A DNA stretch of 64,000 nt. It comes from Rhodopseudomonas sp. P2A-2r (GTDB lineage Bacteria > Pseudomonadota > Alphaproteobacteria > Rhizobiales > Xanthobacteraceae). Below are positions 39,889 to 51,070 of this stretch, one piece after another. Under the pieces are notes generated by a model. That model had not been told where the DNA came from. It saw only the letters and a program-made list of their open reading frames with translations, and ran no database searches. The DNA lies in NCBI RefSeq assembly GCF_026015985.1, contig NZ_CP110389.1, positions 1,830,001 through 1,894,000 of the forward strand. Direction: 5' to 3'. The stretch's first letter is position 1. The number at the start of each line of letters is the position of its first letter. The position numbers and the translations under genes were made by a program.

Positions 39889-41406
39889 ATGAGCACGCCA
39901 GCCTATTCAGCCACCCAGGACGTCGGAAACTTCATCGACGGCGCGCCGTCCGCGCTTGCGGCAAACCGAAGGCAGGCGGTCTACAACCCGGCGACCGGTG
40001 CCGTGGCGCGACAGGTGGTGTTGTCCTCCGTCGAGGAGGTGAACGACGCGGTCAAGAGCGCGCGTCGCGCCTTCCCGGCCTGGGCCGATATGCCGCCGAT
40101 CCGCCGCGCCCGCATCATGAACAAGTTCCTAGCGCTGATGAACGAGCACACCGACACGCTGGCGGCGATGATCACCGCCGAGCACGGCAAGGTATTCTCC
40201 GATGCCCAGGGCGAGGTCGCGCGCGGCATCGACATCATTGAATTCGCCTGCGGCATTCCGCAGCTCCTGAAGGGCGACTACACCGACCAGGTCTCCACCG
40301 GCATCGACAACTGGACCATGCGCCAGCCGCTCGGCGTGGTCGCTGGCATCACCCCGTTCAACTTCCCGGTGATGGTGCCGTGCTGGATGTTCCCGGTGGC
40401 GATTGCCGCCGGCAACTGCTTCATCCTGAAGCCGAGCGAACGCGATCCCTCGCCGTCGTTGTTCATGGCGGACCTGCTGATGCAGGCGGGGCTGCCAAAG
40501 GGCGTGTTCAACGTGGTGCAGGGCGACAAGGTCGTCGTCGACGCGCTGCTGCAGCATCAGGGCGTCTCCGCCGTCAGCTTCGTCGGCTCGACGCCGATCG
40601 CCCACTATGTGCACCAGCAGGGCGCGCAATACGGCAAGCGCGTGCAGGCGCTCGGCGGCGCAAAGAACCACATGGTTGTCATGCCCGACGCCGACCTTAA
40701 CCAGGCCGTGGATGCGCTGATCGGTGCCGGCTTCGGCTCGGCTGGGGAGCGCTGCATGGCGATCTCGGTCGCCGTGCTGGTCGGCGATGTCGGCGACAAG
40801 ATCGTCCCGCTGCTTGCCGAGCGGGTCAAGCAGCTGAAGATCCTCAACGGCATGGAAGCAGCGGCGGAAATGGGCCCGGTCGTGACGAAGCAGGCGCTGG
40901 AGCGCATCGAAGGCTATATCGGCCTCGGTGTCGAGGAAGGTGCCAAGCTGGTCGTCGACGGTCGCGGCATCAAAGTCGCCGGTCACGAGAACGGCTTCTT
41001 CACCGGCGGCACGCTGTTCGACAACGTCACGCCGGAGATGAAGATCTACAAGGAAGAGATTTTTGGGCCGGTGCTGTCCTGCGTCCGCGTCGCCGATTTC
41101 GCCGAAGCGTTGCAGCTGATCAACGACCACGAGTTCGGCAACGGCGTGTCCTGCTACACCCGCGACGGCAATGTCGCCCGCGAGTTTTCGCGCCGCGTCC
41201 AGGTCGGCATGGTCGGCATCAACGTGCCGATCCCGGTGCCGATGGCCTGGCATGGCTTCGGCGGCTGGAAGCGCAGCCTGTTCGGCGACATGCATGCCTA
41301 CGGCGAGGAAGGCGTGCGCTTCTACACCAAGCAGAAGTCGATCATGCAGCGCTGGCCGGAAAGCACGGCGCACGGCGCCGAATTCGCGATGCCGACGGCA
41401 AAATAG
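39889..41406 (+). CDS. mmsA: Methylmalonate-semialdehyde dehydrogenase (CoA-acylating)
   Basis: 505 residues from the ATG at 39889 (upstream frame to 39310 is antisense to the LysR gene). Family-specific pattern: [58 protein letters not shown] and catalytic Cys289 in GERCMAISV; the usual ALDH general-base Glu is replaced by Asn in GGAKNH, as expected for the CoA-dependent enzyme. Converts methylmalonate or malonate semialdehyde to propionyl- or acetyl-CoA, in valine, beta-alanine, pyrimidine or inositol breakdown. Confidence 0.93.
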
Positions 41407-41417
41407 GTCTGCCGATT

Positions 41418-41452
41418 GATCCGGTGCGAGGCAATTATTCTCGCACCGGATC
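41418..41452 (+). terminator. Strong hairpin after mmsA
   Basis: Perfect 13-bp stem GATCCGGTGCGAG/CTCGCACCGGATC with a nine-base loop, 12 bp after the stop. No T run follows, so it may be a Rho-dependent or mRNA-stabilising hairpin. Confidence 0.65.
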
Positions 41453-41788
41453 AAACCGGGACAAAAAGGCTGCCGAGTGGAATCGACGGCTACCGATGCC
41501 TAGATGGCGCCACATGGCCGCCAACGTAGGAGCGTGCTCGGCCCGTATAGCCCGCGTCGCGCGGCCAACAACATCTTCGCCGGGGACGGGACGCGCCACC
41601 GCATGACCACGCTGGAGTTAGCTCAGCTCTGAGCGCCCGTTTAGCATAGGGCATGGGGTGTATCATTCTATACACTACGGCCCGGCAGGCGATCCAGTTC
41701 CAGAGCCGCTCATCCATCGTCTCGCGTTAGCGTTCGCAACGATTTCCTTCAATTGACTGGAAGCAAGTGACGGCATTTCCTTCGCATC
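41453..41788. other. Left flank of the 21-bp repeat region
   Basis: No gene supported. Base composition falls visibly towards A+T from about 41630 onward, marking the start of an island between mmsA and the P450 gene. Degenerate repeat-like pieces (CGTTCGCAACGATTTCCTTC) occur near 41731. Confidence 0.4.
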
Positions 41789-41914
41789 CGATTCAACACT
41801 TTGAAACAGCGATTCAAAGACGTGCAAGTGCGTTGCAAAGTTCGGTAAACCTGATTCATATCGACATAATTCCGATTCAGATCCCATGATTTCCGTTACT
41901 TTTATCATGTAAGG
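41789..41914. repeat. Phased 21-bp repeat cluster A (six units)
   Basis: Six adjoining units of exactly 21 bp, starting at 41789, 41810, 41831, 41852, 41873 and 41894. Each begins with CGATTCA, CGTTGCA, TGATTCA or CGTTACT; the rest is degenerate. Two helical turns per unit would put every unit on one face of the DNA. Confidence 0.8.
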
Positions 41915-42082
41915 TGAATACCCCTTTGCGATCTTCGCGACGGACGACGATTTTCGAACATGTGCCGCGCCACCAGCCATTGGTTCAGCAGTTGGAGACC
42001 ATCTCGCTCTGTCGGCGACCTTGTCCAATTCCCAGACATGTCGAAATCAGTTGCCGCGTACGCGATCGCAGTTGCGCATTTA

Positions 42083-42166
42083 CGATTCAAACTCAGAGAA
42101 TGACGATTCAAATCCCGAAATCTTCGTTTCATCGTTCAATAGCCGCGCTGCAGACATGGCAAAATC
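42083..42166. repeat. Phased 21-bp repeat cluster B (four units)
   Basis: Units at 42083, 42104, 42125 and 42146, beginning CGATTCAAAC, CGATTCAAAT, CGTTTCATC and CGCTGCAG. Preceded by GCAGTTGCGCATTT at 42068-42081, which also precedes cluster D at the same distance. Cluster B starts exactly 14 x 21 bp after cluster A. Confidence 0.75.
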
Positions 42167-42197
42167 CACGCAAGTGAGCTCCGCATTTTGAAACATC

Positions 42198-42302
42198 TGA
42201 TTCAAAGCCCGATATTTACGTTGCAAAGTTCGATATCGATGATTCGAGATCAGACAGCGCCGATTCAATGTTAAGTATATGCGTTGCATTCCTTGAATGA
42301 CG
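42198..42302. repeat. Phased 21-bp repeat cluster C (five units)
   Basis: Units at 42198, 42219, 42240, 42261 and 42282, beginning TGATTCAAAG, CGTTGCAAAG, TGATTCGAG, CGATTCAATG and CGTTGCATT. Offset from cluster B by 5.5 units, so it is half a unit (about one helical turn) out of register. Confidence 0.8.
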
Positions 42303-42480
42303 CTTACGCTATTGATCTGTAACGGGGCGACCGCAAGATTTCGCCATGCGCAAGCTCACATACGTTCCCGGAGACTGCTTAGTCAGGCTTTCCCCCGTGT
42401 TTGATGTTCGGGGCAACCCGGGGCAAGTTGCGCAAACAGCAACTAAAGTTGCACCAGACGCAGAAGCAGTTGCGCATTTT

Positions 42481-42585
42481 TGATTCAAAGTTCGAAAATG
42501 GCGATTCAAAGCCAGATATCTTCGTTGCAATCCTCGAGTTTTGCGTTGCGGAGTCCGAAATTTCCGATTCAGAATGTGATGTGGG
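42481..42585. repeat. Phased 21-bp repeat cluster D (five units)
   Basis: Units at 42481, 42502, 42523, 42544 and 42565, beginning TGATTCAAAG, CGATTCAAAG, CGTTGCAATC, CGTTGCGGAG and CGATTCAGAA. Preceded by GCAGTTGCGCATTT at 42466-42479, identical to the leader of cluster B. Confidence 0.8.
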
Positions 42586-42957
42586 CGAGGCGCCGCGGGA
42601 GCGGCGTTCACGCGTTGCCGGGGGACTAGTCGCTTTCTTCCATCGATTGCGATCTCAGAGACGCGACACGGGTTCGCCAAAACGCCCGGCCTCCGATCGT
42701 CTTTTCCGCCTGGTCAAACGCTCGTAACGACCCCGGTCCTTCCGACGGTCCGTCCGATTTCTCGAAGGTCGCTCGATATCACCTGATTTTCCGCATTCAG
42801 CCAAGGGTTTGATTTCGATCAGCATCGAGGCCTGGTCGAAGGAAAGAATCTCTGCCGGCGCAGATTTGTCGCTTGCTCCGACCAGACGCATACTCGAATG
42901 GCTGGAACGTGTGTGCCGCGGGGGCCAGCGTAATGAACATTTTCCGGAGGATTGCTG
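42586..42957. other. Leader of the small-protein/sigma/ParA/AAA+ gene set
   Basis: No gene supported. Contains the ribosome site CGGAGG at 42945-42950 of the next gene. The promoter is not clear by eye; the repeat clusters end about 370 bp before the first gene. Confidence 0.4.
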
Positions 42958-43272
42958 ATGCGTAGACCGATCACGCAACGCCGCGCTGAGCAAGCGGAGC
43001 AGCAGCGGGCGTATCGCTTGCAGCAGACTGCGTTGCGCAAACCGTCGCGTGACGATGTGGCGAGGGTGGCGCTCCACCTGATGATCACTGAAGCTCTGCG
43101 CACCCCGGATGCTAAATTCGGGTCGTGGTGTGATCACCTCGTTTTGCTCCTGGCAGCCCAGGGTTTCGACCGTGATGCTGCATATCGCCGAATTGACCAA
43201 CTGGTGGAGCGCTACGCTGACGGCTGGCTAGCACAGCGCAAGCCTCATCTGGCACGGCCGGGCGCGGGTTGA
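42958..43272 (+). CDS. Small basic protein of unknown function
   Basis: 104 residues. The ATG at 42958 has CGGAGG seven bases upstream, so this is a real gene. The N-terminal third is rich in Arg and Gln (MRRPITQRRAEQAEQQRAY, a likely basic helix that could bind DNA or RNA); the rest is predicted helical with a conserved-looking WCDHLVLLLAAQGFD core. Not recognised as a known family. First gene of the island operon and closest to the 21-bp repeats, so a role in binding them can be proposed but is untested. Confidence 0.7.
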   Translation: MRRPITQRRAEQAEQQRAYRLQQTALRKPSRDDVARVALHLMITEALRTPDAKFGSWCDHLVLLLAAQGFDRDAAYRRIDQLVERYADGWLAQRKPHLARPGAG

Positions 43273-43600
43273 CGCCCAGCAGTTGGTGTATTCCCCCGTT
43301 ACTTCACCCAACGGCGTTGACGTCTGAATCGCCTTCCAGACTGCCGCTCGCAAGGTGCCTGGACTGTTTTCGGGCGGGCCGTGACGCACCTTCCGGAAGC
43401 ACTTCCCCAGCCGCCGGCTTCATTCGGCCAGTATATCGAGTGGCTGTCGGATCTCCGGCCAGGCGTTGGATGCCGCAATGGGACGCTGGCTGGATGGTTG
43501 ACCAGATGAGGCCAGCGAGCGGGCGGTCCACAAAATAGGATCTAGATCCTAGACAACCCTTTGGGATCCTGCCAGGTTCGCCCCAGGCAAAGGAGCGCAC
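43273..43600. other. Gap before the sigma-factor gene
   Basis: An 89-codon frame (43269-43538) is proline/serine-rich without a ribosome site or motif and is not taken as a gene. The right end carries a 16-bp palindrome and the ribosome site CAAAGGAG of the sigma gene. Confidence 0.45.
43536..43551. promoter_or_regulatory. Perfect 16-bp palindrome upstream of the sigma-factor gene
   Basis: TAGGATCTAGATCCTA is its own reverse complement and ends 49 bp before the sigma-factor ATG. A half-similar GGGATCCT follows at about 43562. It is A/T-containing in an otherwise GC-rich setting, so it is a good candidate operator for the operon. Confidence 0.55.
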
Positions 43601-44176
43601 ATGTCACCGTCCAGGTTTCCCCCGAAATATATCGAACGCATCATCGCTCTGCGGCCGGCCCTGCGCCGCCAGGCCACGTTTCTGATCGGTAGACGGACCC
43701 AGATCGGTGCCCCTGACGATTACGTACAGGACACGATGATCACTGCGCTGATGAGCGCGGATCGGTATGCCGAGGACAATCTGTCCGGCTGGTTGATGTC
43801 CATTCTGAACAGCCACATCCGGAATGCGCGCCGCCGCGCTCACGTCCGCACCTCGGTGCCACTGTCGCCGGTGACTACGGATGACGGCGATGCAGTAACG
43901 ATCGACCTGCCGGTCGCCGCGCCCCAGGAACTCAGGCTTGACGTCGCCGATGCGTTGGCAGCGCTTTCTACGTTGCGGGTGGTCGATCAAGAGATCATCT
44001 ATCTCGCGCGGATCGAAGAACTGTCGCATGACGAGATCGCGGCACGGCTCGGATTGCCGATCGGCACCCTGCATGCGCGGTTGTCCCGCGCAACCGCGCG
44101 GTTGCGCGCTGCATATGACGCAGAACCGGGCGGGCCGGAGACGCTGGGTTGCGCTCGTTCTCGTCGTGCCGCGTGA
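43601..44176 (+). CDS. ECF-like RNA polymerase sigma factor
   Basis: 191 residues, region 2 and region 4 only. Region 2 (about 36-80): DDYVQDTMITALMSADRY, NLSGWLMSILNSHIRNARRRA. Region 4 (about 115-168): ALSTLRVVDQEIIYLARIEELSHDEIAARLGLPIGTLHARLSRA, a clear sigma-70 HTH. No linked anti-sigma factor with a zinc motif is seen. CAAAGGAG lies upstream of the ATG. In an operon with a ParA-like and an AAA+ protein, it may direct transcription of this island or be controlled by those ATPases. Confidence 0.85.
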   Translation: MSPSRFPPKYIERIIALRPALRRQATFLIGRRTQIGAPDDYVQDTMITALMSADRYAEDNLSGWLMSILNSHIRNARRRAHVRTSVPLSPVTTDDGDAVTIDLPVAAPQELRLDVADALAALSTLRVVDQEIIYLARIEELSHDEIAARLGLPIGTLHARLSRATARLRAAYDAEPGGPETLGCARSRRAA

Positions 44177-44186
44177 GAATGCCATC

Positions 44187-44966
44187 ATGACCATGCAGAT
44201 TTATCTGGTCGCCGGTCTCAACGGCGGCGGCGGCCGCAGCCTGACCGCTGCGCTGCTCGCGTACGGACTGCACTTACAGGATAGACCGACGATCCTGGTG
44301 CGACAGACCTACCATGGCCTTCTCTCGACGATTGAGCCGCTCGAGGCAACGCTACCGGTAACGTGCTGCGAGCTGATGCTGCCAGCCCCCTATGCGCTTC
44401 CGTCGGACCTCAGCGCCGGACTGGCGACCATGATCCACAGCGCCGACGCTCGCTTTGTGACTGCGTTGCGCGAGATGGCCATGGCCGAGGTAGGCAAAGA
44501 CGGACATGTCGTAGTGGATCTATGCTGCAACGAGCGCGCCGCGAATGCCGCCACTATGCGCGATGCGTCAATGGTGCTGATACCGGCGCGCGCGTCGGTT
44601 CTAGAAATCGATTGGGCGGTGCGCACCTTCGCGCGGGCCCGCGACGTCCAGCGTTATCGTGATATCGCCGTGCCGACGCTCATCGCAACCATTGTTCCGG
44701 ACAGCGGGCGTACCCACCAGATAGATGTGCTGGGTCGCATGCTGCGCGACTGCGATCCGCATCGCGAACTCCTGCCGGGTGAGCCGCGGGAGGTGGCAAT
44801 CGAGGTCCCGTTCCTCGACGAGAGTACCCTGATGACGCTCTTCGACGAACGCTCGATCTGGCAGAATCCGCTTTTGAGCGCTCAATGCCGCGCCTTCGCG
44901 ACAGCAGCGGCGGTTCGGGCCGATGCGTTCATGCTCATGCTGGCTGAAGATGACGGTGATCTTTGA
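44187..44966 (+). CDS. ParA/MinD-like P-loop protein with degenerate Walker A
   Basis: 259 residues (ATG 44187 or 44193), 10 bp after the sigma gene. The start MQIYLVAGLNGGGGRSLTAALLAYGL resembles the deviant Walker A of ParA proteins (KGGxGKS) but both lysines are replaced: Asn12 and Arg17. The strand HVVVDLCCNERAANAATMRDA corresponds to the Walker A'/switch region and LIPARASVLEIDWAVRTF to a later ParA segment. Without the lysines, ATP hydrolysis may be weak or lost. Also possibly a VirC1-like or SIMIBI-class relative. Function unknown; partition-like or scaffold role inferred. Confidence 0.65.
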   Translation: MTMQIYLVAGLNGGGGRSLTAALLAYGLHLQDRPTILVRQTYHGLLSTIEPLEATLPVTCCELMLPAPYALPSDLSAGLATMIHSADARFVTALREMAMAEVGKDGHVVVDLCCNERAANAATMRDASMVLIPARASVLEIDWAVRTFARARDVQRYRDIAVPTLIATIVPDSGRTHQIDVLGRMLRDCDPHRELLPGEPREVAIEVPFLDESTLMTLFDERSIWQNPLLSAQCRAFATAAAVRADAFMLMLAEDDGDL

Positions 44967-45089
44967 CGTTCAAGCGAACTCCGTCAGCCGCCCGTGGTCT
45001 CAACAGCATTGCTTGCCGGATGGGCGTGCCAAGGCAGGCAGCCTTGGTGCCTCCCCCGGTTGACCCGTTCTGACCAACGAAAGACTTCC

Positions 45090-45497
45090 ATGCTGACCAA
45101 AATGTTTCCATTTCTCGATCCAGTTCACATCACGCGCGCATTATCAGACCGGCTACAAGCGTTGGCCGAGGATTGCCTCATGCTGGAACATGACCTCACG
45201 TTCGTGTCGGTGCGATTGCGCACCGCACCAATGCTTGATTCCTATGTCCCCGTGCTCTCGCCGCTCGGCCTGCATCTCGTCGGCCAGGTCACGCAGCATC
45301 CGCTGCTAGGATCGCGCAGAATCGTCACTTCACAGGTCTGGGTTGCCGATCCGGAAGGACACTGGGCTCGGACTCTCTCACGATTCTACCGCCTGGGACG
45401 CCCCGCCGATCCCGACGATTGCGATCGCATCCTCGCAACCTCGCCGTTTACGTTCGACGGCTGCGACGAAGCCGGCTGGTCCGGAGACGTCAATTGA
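45090..45497 (+). CDS. Protein of unknown function in the sigma/ParA/AAA+ operon
   Basis: 135 residues from the ATG at 45090 (the frame is open from 44994 but earlier starts lack ribosome sites). Begins MLTKMFPFLDPVHITRALSDRLQ and contains LEHDLTFVSVRLRTAPMLDSYVPV; mixed alpha/beta, soluble, no motif recognised. Its stop overlaps the TTG start of the AAA+ gene (TTGA), indicating coupled translation and probably physical partnership. Confidence 0.7.
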   Translation: MLTKMFPFLDPVHITRALSDRLQALAEDCLMLEHDLTFVSVRLRTAPMLDSYVPVLSPLGLHLVGQVTQHPLLGSRRIVTSQVWVADPEGHWARTLSRFYRLGRPADPDDCDRILATSPFTFDGCDEAGWSGDVN

Positions 45498-47077
45498 ACC
45501 ACGACGACGACGACGGCAATGATGCCTTGAGCCCCCGTGAAGTCGATCCGGACACTGTCGCAAACGGCGCTGCGGCAGATTCAGCCGATAGCGAGTTGGA
45601 GCGTCTCAAAGGCCTGCCAAGAATTTTGCGATACGCTATGCTGTCCAGGGAAAACCGCGACGAAGTCGTCGCGCAACGCCTCGTTGCGGAGATCGATGAA
45701 CTCTACCCTAATCTCCCGCAAAACGCCGTATGGGCTGCCACCCAGGACGCCGAAAGCGGTCGCGCTCTCGCTGCCGAACTCGACCGCCTCGCTGTGATAG
45801 CGGACCTGCCGCTTTTGCGCAGCCTGAGTGACTGCGTTCGATTGCTGTCGCTGTCGGTGCCACACGACTTCGAAAGCTTCACAGCCTACCGGCGCGTCAC
45901 GCGCGCCATGATCCACGCCCTGCATCAGGTTGCCGCACATCTCGAGGATCAGCAGTGCGCGGACCTCGAAGAATTAGTCTACGGTTTTGCCGCGCTGCCC
46001 GCCGCGAAAGGGTTGACCGATGGTACTCGCCATTGGCCGGCGATAAGCAGCGCGGTGTACCTGGGCGACCGGTCGGCGCGCCATCGCATCCGCGCCGCAG
46101 TCGTCAATGCGACGAACTATATCCGCCGTGACATGGAGACAAATCAGGCGGTCAGGCAATCGCATCAACCGGCCGCAGATTCCACAATGCGCGATCAGCT
46201 AACGATCGAGCCGATTGCTGAGCACCATGTGACCGTCGGGCGCATGTCTGAGACCGAGATGAAGGCCCTTAAACTTACAGAGCCGCTGAAACACGTTCTG
46301 CGAACTTCGTTGCCGCTCATCCATACACCTCCCCTCGACCGCGTCCGCGCGGCATTGTTCGCCGAATTTCCCTATGCCATCGATGTCATCGATTTCACAC
46401 TTACAGACCTCGTCAGCCGTCCCACTGTGCGGTTGCGACCGCTGCTGCTCGTCGGCGAACCGGGCAGTGGAAAATCCCGATTCGCCCGCCGGCTAGGCGA
46501 GGTTTTGGGCTTGACTATCTGGCGCAATGACGCTGCACAATCAGACGGTAACACCTTTGCCGGCACCGATCGGCGATGGAACACGGCCCAACCATGCCAT
46601 GCCTTCCTCGCGATTGCCCGGGGCAAAACCGCCAATCCTTTTGTATTGATCGACGAGATCGAAAAGACCAGCACGCGCAATGATTACGGTCGGTTGTGGG
46701 ATTGTCTGCTTGGCCTGTTGGAGTCCGAAACAAGCGCTTGTTATCCGGATCCTGCATTGCAGATCCCGCTCGATCTAAGCCACGTGAACTACATTGCGAC
46801 CGCCAACACAATTGATCCACTTCCCCTTCCGCTCCTCGACCGCTTCAGGATCATTGCGTTTCCAAAACCGACAATCCGGGATCTTGATGCGCTGTTGCCT
46901 GTGATGATCAGAGGTCTTGCCGCCGATCGCGGCATTGATAACCGCTGGATCACTCCGCTCGATGCCCATGAACTCGCCAGCGTCACTGCCGCGTGGCCCG
47001 GTGGATCCGTGCGTCATCTGCGACGTATTCTTGAGATTATCATTCAGACCCGCGATCGAATGGCGTCCAAGCATTGA
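45494..47077 (+). CDS. AAA+ ATPase, Lon/MoxR-like
   Basis: 527 residues from the TTG at 45494, overlapping the previous stop, with GGAG upstream. N-terminal part (1 to about 280) is of unknown fold with an acidic start. The AAA+ module has Walker A GEPGSGKS at 321-328, Walker B with Asp387-Glu388 in LIDEIEK, sensor 1 Asn438 in IATANTI, and GGSVRHLRR as sensor 2/arginine. The layout recalls the Lon ATPase domain (LLLVGEPGSGK, substrate-facing FAGTDRRW) but there is no protease domain. Probably remodels a partner protein or nucleoprotein complex. Confidence 0.8.
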   Translation: MNHDDDDGNDALSPREVDPDTVANGAAADSADSELERLKGLPRILRYAMLSRENRDEVVAQRLVAEIDELYPNLPQNAVWAATQDAESGRALAAELDRLAVIADLPLLRSLSDCVRLLSLSVPHDFESFTAYRRVTRAMIHALHQVAAHLEDQQCADLEELVYGFAALPAAKGLTDGTRHWPAISSAVYLGDRSARHRIRAAVVNATNYIRRDMETNQAVRQSHQPAADSTMRDQLTIEPIAEHHVTVGRMSETEMKALKLTEPLKHVLRTSLPLIHTPPLDRVRAALFAEFPYAIDVIDFTLTDLVSRPTVRLRPLLLVGEPGSGKSRFARRLGEVLGLTIWRNDAAQSDGNTFAGTDRRWNTAQPCHAFLAIARGKTANPFVLIDEIEKTSTRNDYGRLWDCLLGLLESETSACYPDPALQIPLDLSHVNYIATANTIDPLPLPLLDRFRIIAFPKPTIRDLDALLPVMIRGLAADRGIDNRWITPLDAHELASVTAAWPGGSVRHLRRILEIIIQTRDRMASKH

Positions 47078-48640: not shown

Positions 48641-49491
48641 TTATTCGGCAATCACGGGGTTACGCAGCACGCCGATCCCGGAGACTTCGACCTCGACGGT
48701 GTCGCCCGGCTTCATGAAAAGCGGTGGATTGCGCTTGAGGCCGACGCCTCCTGGCGTGCCGGTGACGATGACGTCACCCGGAAGCAGCGGCAGCATCGTC
48801 GAACAATAGGCAATCAGTTCGGGAATGCTGGTGATCAGCTTGTCTGTCGTCGTGCTCTGCACGGTCTGACCGTTCAGCCGGGTTTCCAGCGTCAGCGTGG
48901 TCGGGTCGGGGATTTCGTCCGACGTAACCAGCCAGGGACCGAAGGCGCCGGTGCCAGCGAAGGTCTTTCCCGCCAGGAACTGGGTGGTGTGGCGCTGCCA
49001 GTCGCGGATGCTACCTTCATTGTAGCAGGAATAGCCCGCGATATGGCTGAGCGCGTCGGCTTCCGAGATGTGCCGGCCGGCCTTGCCGATCACCACGGCG
49101 ACCTCGCCCTCATAGTCGAACTGTTCGGAGACGGTCGGCTTGACCATGGGTTGCAAATGCCCGACCTGGCTGCCGGCGAAGCGCGCGAACAGCGACGGCT
49201 TCTCCGTCACGGCCCTGCCGACTTCGGCTACGTGATCGCGATAGTTCATCCCAACGCAGATGATCTTGTCGGGGTCCGGGATGACAGGCGCAAGCTGGAT
49301 TTTTCGAGCGAAAAATCCGCCTGCTCGGATGCGGCAAGCCTGGCGGCGTCCGCGAGTGCGTTGCCGGCCAGCAGTTGACGCAGCGTCGCGAAGCCGCGTT
49401 CGCTCAGTCGCCGGCCGAGGTCGACGACGCCTTTTTCCTTCACGACGCCGTAGGAGGAGCGGCCGTTTTCGACGAACGAGACGAGCTTCAT
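48641..49491 (-). pseudogene. Fumarylacetoacetate hydrolase-family protein (frameshifted)
   Basis: ATG 49491 follows AAAAGGAAGTCCC. The first frame reads MKLVSFVENGRSSYGVVKEKG to ADFSLEK; the C-terminal frame has ICVGMNYRDHVAEVG, FDYEGEVAVVIGKAG, GYSCYNEGSIRDWQ and PGDVIVTGTPGGVG. They join by adding one base to the TTTTT run 49302-49306 on the + strand (GAAAAAATC, giving LEKIQLAPVIP). Restored length about 283 residues, the normal FAH form. Probably hydrolyses or hydrates the ring-cleavage product in the aromatic pathway. Confidence 0.85.
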
Positions 49492-49544
49492 GGGACTTCC
49501 TTTTGATATTCCGTTTCGAGGTGGAGAGTTGCCAAGAGCCGCAA

Positions 49545-51070
49545 CTAGGACACCGGGCAGGGGCGGAAACGAGTGCTCCCAGCAGTGTCGGGAGGTCGGC
49601 TTGATCGCGGACAAATCCGAGCACGTAGCGATCTGGTCGCACCAGAACGAGTCCGGCGTTGTTCTGCGACAGCCAGTCTTGCAGCGCCGGTACGGCATCG
49701 TCGACGAGGACGATGTCGGCATCGGCAATCTGGCGTCGCACATCGTCCGACAGCGCGGCGGAAACGGCGGGAGTTGCCAGCAGCGCAAACCGGTAGCCGA
49801 TGCGCGCATCCAGTCGCGTGCCGTCGGCGAGTACGGGTTGCGGAGCAAGCTGTCCGGTCATCTCGCTTCGGCCTGCGCTCAGGCCGGCGCCCAGAAACGG
49901 CTTTGTCGATTCCATCCGCGGTGCGCCGTCGGCGTTGCGTTGGCCATTGGGCAACCCGGCCTCGATGGCCTTGGTGTTGATGACGCCGCCCAGCCTGATC
50001 GCCAGCTCGATATACTCTTGCACGTGCGGCGCGCGCTCGCTCTGATAGCTGTCGAGCAGCGCGTCGTTATCATCGCCCTTGACCACGCGTGCCAGCTTCC
50101 AGGCGAGGTTCGCCGCGTCGCGAATGCCGGCGCACATGCCCTGGCCGAGAAAGGGCGGCGTCTGATGTGCGGAGTCGCCGGCCAGCAGCAGGCGTCCTCC
50201 GCGCCAGCGCTCGGCGATCACCGAATGGAATGTGTAGACCGCCGCGCGCTCAAGCTCGGCATCGTCCGGCGTGATCCATTTCTGCAGCAGGTCCCACACC
50301 CGGGCCGGCGTGGTCATGGCCTGAGAATCCTCGTTGTCCCGCAGGGTGATTTCCCATCGACGGCGATTGCCGGTGCCACGCACATAGGTGGCCGGCCGCG
50401 CCGGATCGCAATGTTGCAGGCTGTAGTCGCCGAGATCGGGGCGCGGTCGCGTCAGCAGTGCGTCGATCACCAGCCATCGCTCGTGGAAGCCCAGGTCGAG
50501 CATGCCGGACCCGATCAGCCGGCGCACCAGCGAGCGTGCACCATCGCAGCCGACCACATACTTGGCGCGACAGCGCGACAGGCGCCCGTTGGCGAGGTCC
50601 TCGAAGCGGACCGTGACGCCGTCCGCGTCGCAATCCAGCGCGAAGACGTCGCAGCGGCTGCGGACGGTCACGCTCGGCCACCTGGCCAGGCCGGCGCGCA
50701 ACACCCGCTCCAGGTCGGGTTGGTGGAAGCGATAACTCGGGTGCCAGCCCATTGCCGAGATGTGGGCGGGGCGCGACCAGTCGAGGATCATTTTGCCGTT
50801 TGCATCGACGAAATGCATGCCGGGCGACAGAATGACGTCGCGGGCGATCTGGTCGCTGAGACCGATCGTCTCGAACACCCGCATGACCTCGTCGTCGAAG
50901 TGGACCGCGCGGGGCAGGTGGTAGGCGTCGGCCTCGCGCTCGAGGACAAGCGTGCGGATGCCGCAAAGGCCGAGCAGGTTTGCCAGCGTCGAACCGACCG
51001 GGCCCAGCCCGACGATGACGATGACGATGTCGGTGTTGGCGTCAGATGCTGCAGGATTGTTGTGTACCAT
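49545..51070 (-). CDS. FAD-dependent aromatic monooxygenase, MhpA-like (C-terminal end uncertain)
   Basis: About 508 residues. GxGxxG in VGLGPVGSTLANLLG, the DG motif VGCDGARSLVRRLIG and the GD motif LLLAGDSAHQTPPFLGQG are all present, as in 3-(3-hydroxyphenyl)propionate hydroxylase and other class A hydroxylases. As given, the frame runs on through the FAH gene and makes a false 809-residue protein. One added base in a short C run (CCCC/CCC near 49551-49563) would end it at the TAG at 49545-49547, 53 bp before the FAH start. Introduces a hydroxyl on the aromatic ring using NAD(P)H. Confidence 0.8.

Follow-up and report, generated by a model that had tools for sequence, protein, structure and literature searches.

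We analysed a 64,000-nucleotide stretch of the Rhodopseudomonas sp. P2A-2r chromosome ("the window"; contig NZ_CP110389.1, positions 1,830,001 to 1,894,000) and identified a duplicated gene cassette in which a phased array of 21-bp repeats precedes five genes on the forward strand. These encode a small basic protein (Orf1), an extracytoplasmic function (ECF)-type sigma factor, a ParA/MinD-like protein, a DUF6634 protein and a Lon-like AAA+ ATPase. The array and gene order are conserved in relatives and the array is linked to orf1. The sigma factor and ParA-like protein are fused in another copy, the final AAA+ gene is exchanged for a different type in some cassettes, and the flanks of other copies are rich in defence genes. 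Our leading reading, tentative and held at a little under even confidence, is a mobile, self-regulated AAA+ module of defence islands, an effector or a regulator, in which Orf1 would bind the array.

Organisation of the cassette

The features, in window positions, are as follows (aa, amino acids; ORF, open reading frame; pI, isoelectric point).

About 41499 to about 47281, + strand: whole duplicated unit, with a near-copy elsewhere on the chromosome between unrelated flanks
41788-41892, + strand: array cluster 1, five units
42082-42144, + strand: array cluster 2, three units
42197-42302, + strand: array cluster 3, five positions (one degenerate)
42480-42585, + strand: proximal array cluster, five positions (one degenerate), unit order A-A-B-B-A
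42958-43272, + strand: orf1, small basic protein of 104 aa, pI 10.5 (ORF read in the sequence)
43536-43576, + strand: control region upstream of the sigma gene, palindrome TAGGA-N4-GATCCTAGACA and a further GATCCTGCCAGG
43601-44176, + strand: ECF-type sigma factor, 191 aa, regions 2 and 4 (ORF read, profile matches)
44187-44966, + strand: ParA/MinD-like protein, 259 aa, with a GGxGR[ST] P-loop (Lys replaced by Arg)
45090-45497, + strand: DUF6634 protein, 135 aa (Pfam score)
45494-47077, + strand: Lon-like AAA+ ATPase without protease domain, 527 aa from TTG

An original prediction, made by a model from the letters of the window, had proposed these five genes as an undescribed, acquired set. 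All five ORFs could be read in the sequence where it placed them, including the 104-residue basic protein, the two-domain sigma factor and the TTGA overlap, and no library named the whole set as a phage or known system. Its description "tightly spaced" suits the 10-bp gap between the sigma and ParA-like genes and the 4-bp TTGA overlap shared by the DUF6634 and AAA+ genes, and does not suit the 328 bp between orf1 and the sigma gene or the 123 bp between the ParA-like and DUF6634 genes. The genes are as it listed them, and the duplicated unit extends beyond the interval it had drawn around them. We took the TTG at 45494 as the AAA+ start; translation could also begin at later TTGs or at the ATG at 45638. 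The different base composition that it had reported is borne out by a G+C (guanine plus cytosine) fraction of 0.513 at 41700-42960 and 0.587 across the unit, compared with 0.638 in the remainder of the window.

A phased array linked to orf1

The repeats, which had also been recognised as phased, are spaced by exactly 21 bp. A strict rule applied to the 2.5 kb before orf1 returned 16 in-phase sites in four clusters (41788-42585), with more degenerate ones in addition, against 0.00 on average after this sequence was shuffled. In a self-similarity scan of the 64 kb (210-bp windows, lags 14-63), two signals exceeded z 6, and lag 21 at 42043 was one of them. The consensus of the units, taken over 144 positions, reads approximately YCGATTCAAAGTTCGANATTT, and units are of type A (GATTCA type) or type B (GTTGCA type). 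The A-A-B-B-A order of the proximal cluster also recurs elsewhere, in 11 of 16 family arrays (by eye, with one changed base per unit allowed).

In the family survey, orf1 was detected in 12 of 296 genomes, at 17 places. The A-A-B array pattern, scanned with one mismatch tolerated, was found in nine of the 296, all nine within the 12 having orf1 (Fisher p about 5e-15). It occurs at 33 places, every one no more than about 1.5 kb from orf1 or an orf1 fragment; as the pattern was derived from these very arrays, its absence elsewhere is the informative part, not its presence here. The reversed A-A-B control pattern was found in 0 of 296 family genomes, and the linkage of array and orf1 is exclusive within the family genomes searched. 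In the three orf1 genomes left over, a looser chain rule finds arrays in two, G056 and G122. The third, G266, encodes a distant Orf1 without an array and is the exception to the upstream arrays, of 3-17 in-phase sites each, at 16 of the 17 places.

Orf1, for which 75 relatives were retrieved, carries the motif PxRDDVAR and has no match in Pfam, NCBIfam, PADLOC or PHROGs. Its predicted monomer is all-helical, with four helices and no strand (mean predicted local distance difference test score 82.5, predicted template modelling score 0.55). Between the window copy and that of G007, the ratio of nonsynonymous to synonymous substitution (dN/dS) is about 0.16 for orf1 (0.138/0.858) and about 0.14 for the AAA gene (0.126/0.874), and these low values point to purifying selection on both proteins. 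Given that 21 bp corresponds to two helical turns of DNA, Orf1 would bind the array upstream of its own gene, forming a cooperative nucleoprotein complex on one DNA face, and in this way may set the cassette's expression.

The sigma factor and the altered ParA-like protein

The sigma factor matches PF04542 and PF08281 above cut-off, covering regions 2 and 4 only, and resembles the ECF structures SigE, SigH and CnrH. The control region before it, TAGGA-N4-GATCCT and then a second GATCCT, is exact in nine of the 12 loci aligned; a TGGGA variant stands in L060 and L117, and the first part is absent in L116. In its own genome the region has three matches (at most one mismatch), one preceding each of three sigma copies.

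The ParA-like protein alone has no Pfam match, and its N-terminal part weakly matches BcsQ (TIGR03371, E 7e-4). PF06564 matches 8 of 34 ParA-like homologues at E<=0.05, and a profile built from 34 relatives matched Rv3679 (E 0.002) and, at E 0.015-0.065, chains of ParA and Soj, every match being confined to the N-terminal part. This weak, N-terminal similarity suggests membership of the ParA/MinD superfamily. The likeness to BcsQ/MinD-like atypical ATPases is of the same limited kind, and here the protein stands next to, or is fused with, a sigma factor. Nearly all ParA-like relatives (that of R. palustris HaA2 is encoded by RPB_3061) have the P-loop GGxGR[ST]. Canonical ParA proteins have a lysine at this Walker A position, and that lysine is required. 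Here Arg17 replaces it in all 73 homologues that cover the site, of 76 retrieved, and the signature lysine was present in one of 66 strict matches.

The sigma factor and ParA-like protein are encoded by a single ORF (451-460 aa) at L057 7847-9229 in the window's own genome (fusion P0095), which may be a sign that the two act together. No description of a sigma factor coupled to a ParA-like protein was found in the literature searched. We envisage a physical pair, in which the ParA-like protein would serve as a nucleotide- or partner-sensing switch, not as a DNA-segregating motor, and which would act at the palindromic control region to turn on the DUF6634 and AAA+ genes.

The cassette could alternatively be a partition-like device that maintains an island or former plasmid, the array being the centromere, Orf1 the centromere-binding protein and the ParA-like protein the motor. 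The original prediction had raised such a role as speculation, and the layout behind it stands: upstream repeats, a small basic protein and a ParA-like protein fit type Ib partition (ParF-ParG, delta-omega), as far as the available text of PMC5016525 describes it. Plasmids also carry Orf1 with an array. However, the cassette differs from type Ib systems in the arginine of its P-loop, in its added sigma factor and AAA+ protein, in its several chromosomal copies (up to four places per chromosome), and in that array and orf1 occur without ParA in four of 16 family copies and in L072. The strand needed for a ribbon-helix-helix is not in the predicted Orf1 monomer, which was unmatched in the fold search. 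We consider a partition function improbable.

DUF6634 and AAA+ proteins

The 135-residue protein is not, as first described, of no recognised family: it scores 56.2 bits for DUF6634 (PF20339) against the Pfam cut-off of 27. DUF6634 is a Pfam family without assigned function, and here it is set with an array, Orf1, a sigma factor and a ParA-like protein. The reading of the last gene as a Lon-like AAA+ ATPase without a protease domain was right. The Lon model TIGR00763 matches residues 316-456 only, with 73.6 bits against a cut-off of 608, about 300 N-terminal residues have no family match, and Pfam detected no protease domain. Assignment as a Lon protease was rejected on the missing protease domain and the score far below the Lon cut-off. 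A canonical Walker A motif is present in 15 of 16 AAA relatives of about full length, L147 being unmatched by the expression used. In L057 and L118 the final gene encodes an AAA+M41 protein that replaces the Lon-like AAA. The nearest known proteins are the Lon AAA+ domain, which the window AAA matches, and the FtsH-type M41 peptidase, to which the AAA+M41 of the alternative cassettes corresponds; the window protein differs in having no protease domain.

DUF6634 and AAA+ proteins may remodel a target protein or nucleoprotein complex. Because sister cassettes end in an AAA+ fused to or beside an M41 protease, the output would probably be unfolding or degradation of the target, most likely under phage or foreign-DNA stress.

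Conservation, copies and mobility

A comparison of neighbourhoods, set beforehand, found the gene order conserved together with the upstream repeats in relatives. The order array-orf1-sigma-ParA-like-DUF6634-AAA occurs in Tardiphaga, Rhodopseudomonas and a Rhizobiales metagenome-assembled genome, some copies having damaged or truncated genes. When about 85,000 species genomes were scanned by pattern, seven loci with the ParA-like protein were detected, a lower bound, as at least the G181 and G299 copies were missed; the full gene set looks narrow in distribution.

The second copy in the same chromosome (5,275,294-5,281,066) is 97.8% identical over 5785 bp, with 131 differences, and its parA is frameshifted. 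It lies beside a glutathione transferase gene and a C5 methylase; the neighbours of the window copy are aldehyde dehydrogenase and P450 genes. A third, diverged copy (3.766 Mb) and a remnant (2.144 Mb) are present in the same genome. The duplicated unit with unrelated flanks agrees with the earlier view of an acquired cassette. The window and second copies form a mosaic, with identical tracts of 943, 751 and 649 bp; the left end, the right end and the array diverge by 7.7%, 8.2% and 3.3%, respectively. Because the differences are uneven, with a near-identical core and ends about 8% apart, we read the pair as an older duplication, apparently homogenised later by gene conversion.

The copies could also be those of a transposable element of unrecognised type, with the array as recombination end and the AAA+ protein as transposition helper. 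Such an element would suit the duplicated unit, its left edge (sharp in the copy comparison), the unrelated flanks, the paired cassettes in G002 and G299, and the patchy distribution. Yet none of the five genes matched a transposase or integrase in the profile libraries, the unit ends have no convincing terminal inverted repeats or target-site duplication, no empty site was readable, and only one end carries the array. The divergent ends and near-identical core fit older spread with gene conversion, and we rate transposition of this kind the least probable of the explanations weighed here.

Array and orf1 beyond the family

An order-wide survey found Orf1 relatives in 14 of 397 genomes, the cassette's own genome counted. 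Outside the family, 6 of 15 orf1 places (L179, L180, L182, L186, L187 and L190) have an array, defined as three or more in-phase units in a row, which 0 or 1 of 500 random sequences reached. L189 is borderline, with two units, and eight places have no array (L185 with just 437 bp of true upstream sequence). A motif-free periodicity test gave no clear 21-bp signal at the nine places other than the six. Runs of seven units on the Neorhizobium plasmid pNg7g2 and four on the Agrobacterium plasmid pB7.6 precede orf1, and neither was equalled in 2000 random sequences. Arrays precede Orf1 homologues at 38-45% identity in G088 and two Rhizobiaceae plasmids.

On pNg7g2 and pB7.6, an AAA ATPase and an M41 protease are separate neighbouring ORFs beside the array and orf1. 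In G088, the array and orf1 follow a Lon-like AAA gene with DUF6634, and the 20 kb yielded no match to a sigma factor or ParA-like protein. From G088 and the plasmid neighbourhoods, we infer that array, orf1 and AAA form the core and that the sigma-ParA pair is an addition.

The original prediction had itself allowed that the genes might not co-occur elsewhere, or might match a known plasmid module. The genes do co-occur, and the ParA-like protein has no match on plasmids; single components are present on plasmid records (39 for AAA relatives, 18 for DUF6634 and 8 for Orf1), and a Tardiphaga plasmid carries a cassette remnant. On plasmids of Bradyrhizobium and other Alphaproteobacteria, DUF6634 and the AAA family are also found without orf1 or array, alongside metallophosphoesterases and DUF2130 proteins. 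Separately, a second recurrent operon type without array or orf1 is present on the Bradyrhizobium plasmids L107, L108 and L109. It consists of small proteins (c6; c7 in L108 and L109), then the AAA family and a DUF2130 protein, and L108 adds a metallophosphoesterase ahead of the AAA gene.

Defence-gene context

Pfam searches of selected flank ORFs identified restriction-modification, Cas3, Fic, HipA or GmrSD genes near 8 of 13 places (L060 and L116 were counted once, and L058, on a 6.4-kb contig, was left out).

Near L056, L116 and L119: C5 methylase
Near L059: DUF6079 with N6/N4 methylase
Near L148: Eco57I methylase with helicase
Near L146: HNH, Eco57I and N6 methylases
Near L145: Cas3
Near L147: Fic
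Near L060: HipA
Near L116: GmrSD

The five places without such genes are the window, L057, L115, L117 and L118, where few flank ORFs were Pfam-scanned. At E<=1e-15, 152 PADLOC models were matched over 130 flank ORFs, and a control of 128 ORFs, drawn from random stretches in four genomes, matched 3 (the figures count models, not ORFs). The cassette proteins themselves matched no catalogued anti-phage system in PADLOC-DB (best E 0.038).

One explanation for this setting is that the cassette regulates nearby immune operons, Orf1 on the array (with the sigma-ParA pair) silencing or inducing the adjoining defence operon and the AAA+ protein acting as a protein-quality partner. At L148 10667-13654, a second array and orf1 without sigma or ParA are followed, about 230 bp further on and on the same strand, by an Eco57I-type methylase ORF, and L116 has an array, orf1 and a partial sigma gene near a C5 methylase on the opposite strand. 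There is a precedent in CapK/CapS, which the available text of PMC13373217 describes as a compact regulatory pair adjoining diverse immune operons, CapK resembling anti-sigma kinases. The protein types are other than those found here, where a sigma factor and ParA-like protein are combined with a phased array and an AAA+ protein. Most family copies, however, have their own downstream DUF6634 and AAA genes, no immune operon was seen beside the window copy, and the control region was found only before sigma genes in its own genome. We think such a regulator unlikely.

Several observations weigh against a self-regulated AAA+ module of defence islands. No defence genes were seen adjoining the window copy, which has aldehyde dehydrogenase and P450 genes there. 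The 152 PADLOC models are redundant, many describing the same methylases, and mad3, the top model in both sets, is commoner in the control (11 ORFs) than in the flanks (5). Co-location with defence genes in one island does not prove a role in defence. The sigma-ParA fusion could be explained plainly by a lost stop codon. Orf1 matches no recognised DNA-binding fold in the fold search. Outside the family, 9 of 15 orf1 places are without a clear array, and the run in Pseudorhizobium L176 is of two units only.

A bolder form of the module reading, which we regard as possible and rather doubtful, is a new immune or stress module. In it, Orf1 and the 21-bp phased array would be a nucleoprotein sensor, coupled through a sigma/altered ParA-like switch to an AAA+ unfoldase or protease. 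The array-Orf1-AAA core would extend across several Hyphomicrobiales families and plasmids, with sigma-ParA added in Tardiphaga and Rhodopseudomonas. If the module reading holds, it would add a type of module whose AAA+ machine is controlled by a phased repeat array together with a dedicated small protein, and in which a sigma factor is coupled to a ParA-like protein. Orf1 and DUF6634, families without assigned function, would gain a testable context. The novelty concerns the architecture, as read from sequence.

Neighbouring observations

An imperfect inverted repeat (88% opposite-strand self-match) at window positions 41416-41454 is terminator-like and lies right after the aldehyde dehydrogenase stop, directly left of the unit. 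In another genome of the genus, L064 15032-15106 is a 75-bp copy, 87% identical, of the 3' end of the aldehyde dehydrogenase gene (window 41331-41405). As in the window, it is about 4.5 kb from an AAA relative, and may mark a preferred insertion site. Further right in the window, a single ORF on the reverse strand (48641-51070) encodes an FAD-binding monooxygenase domain and then a fumarylacetoacetate hydrolase domain, possibly a fusion or a sequencing frameshift.

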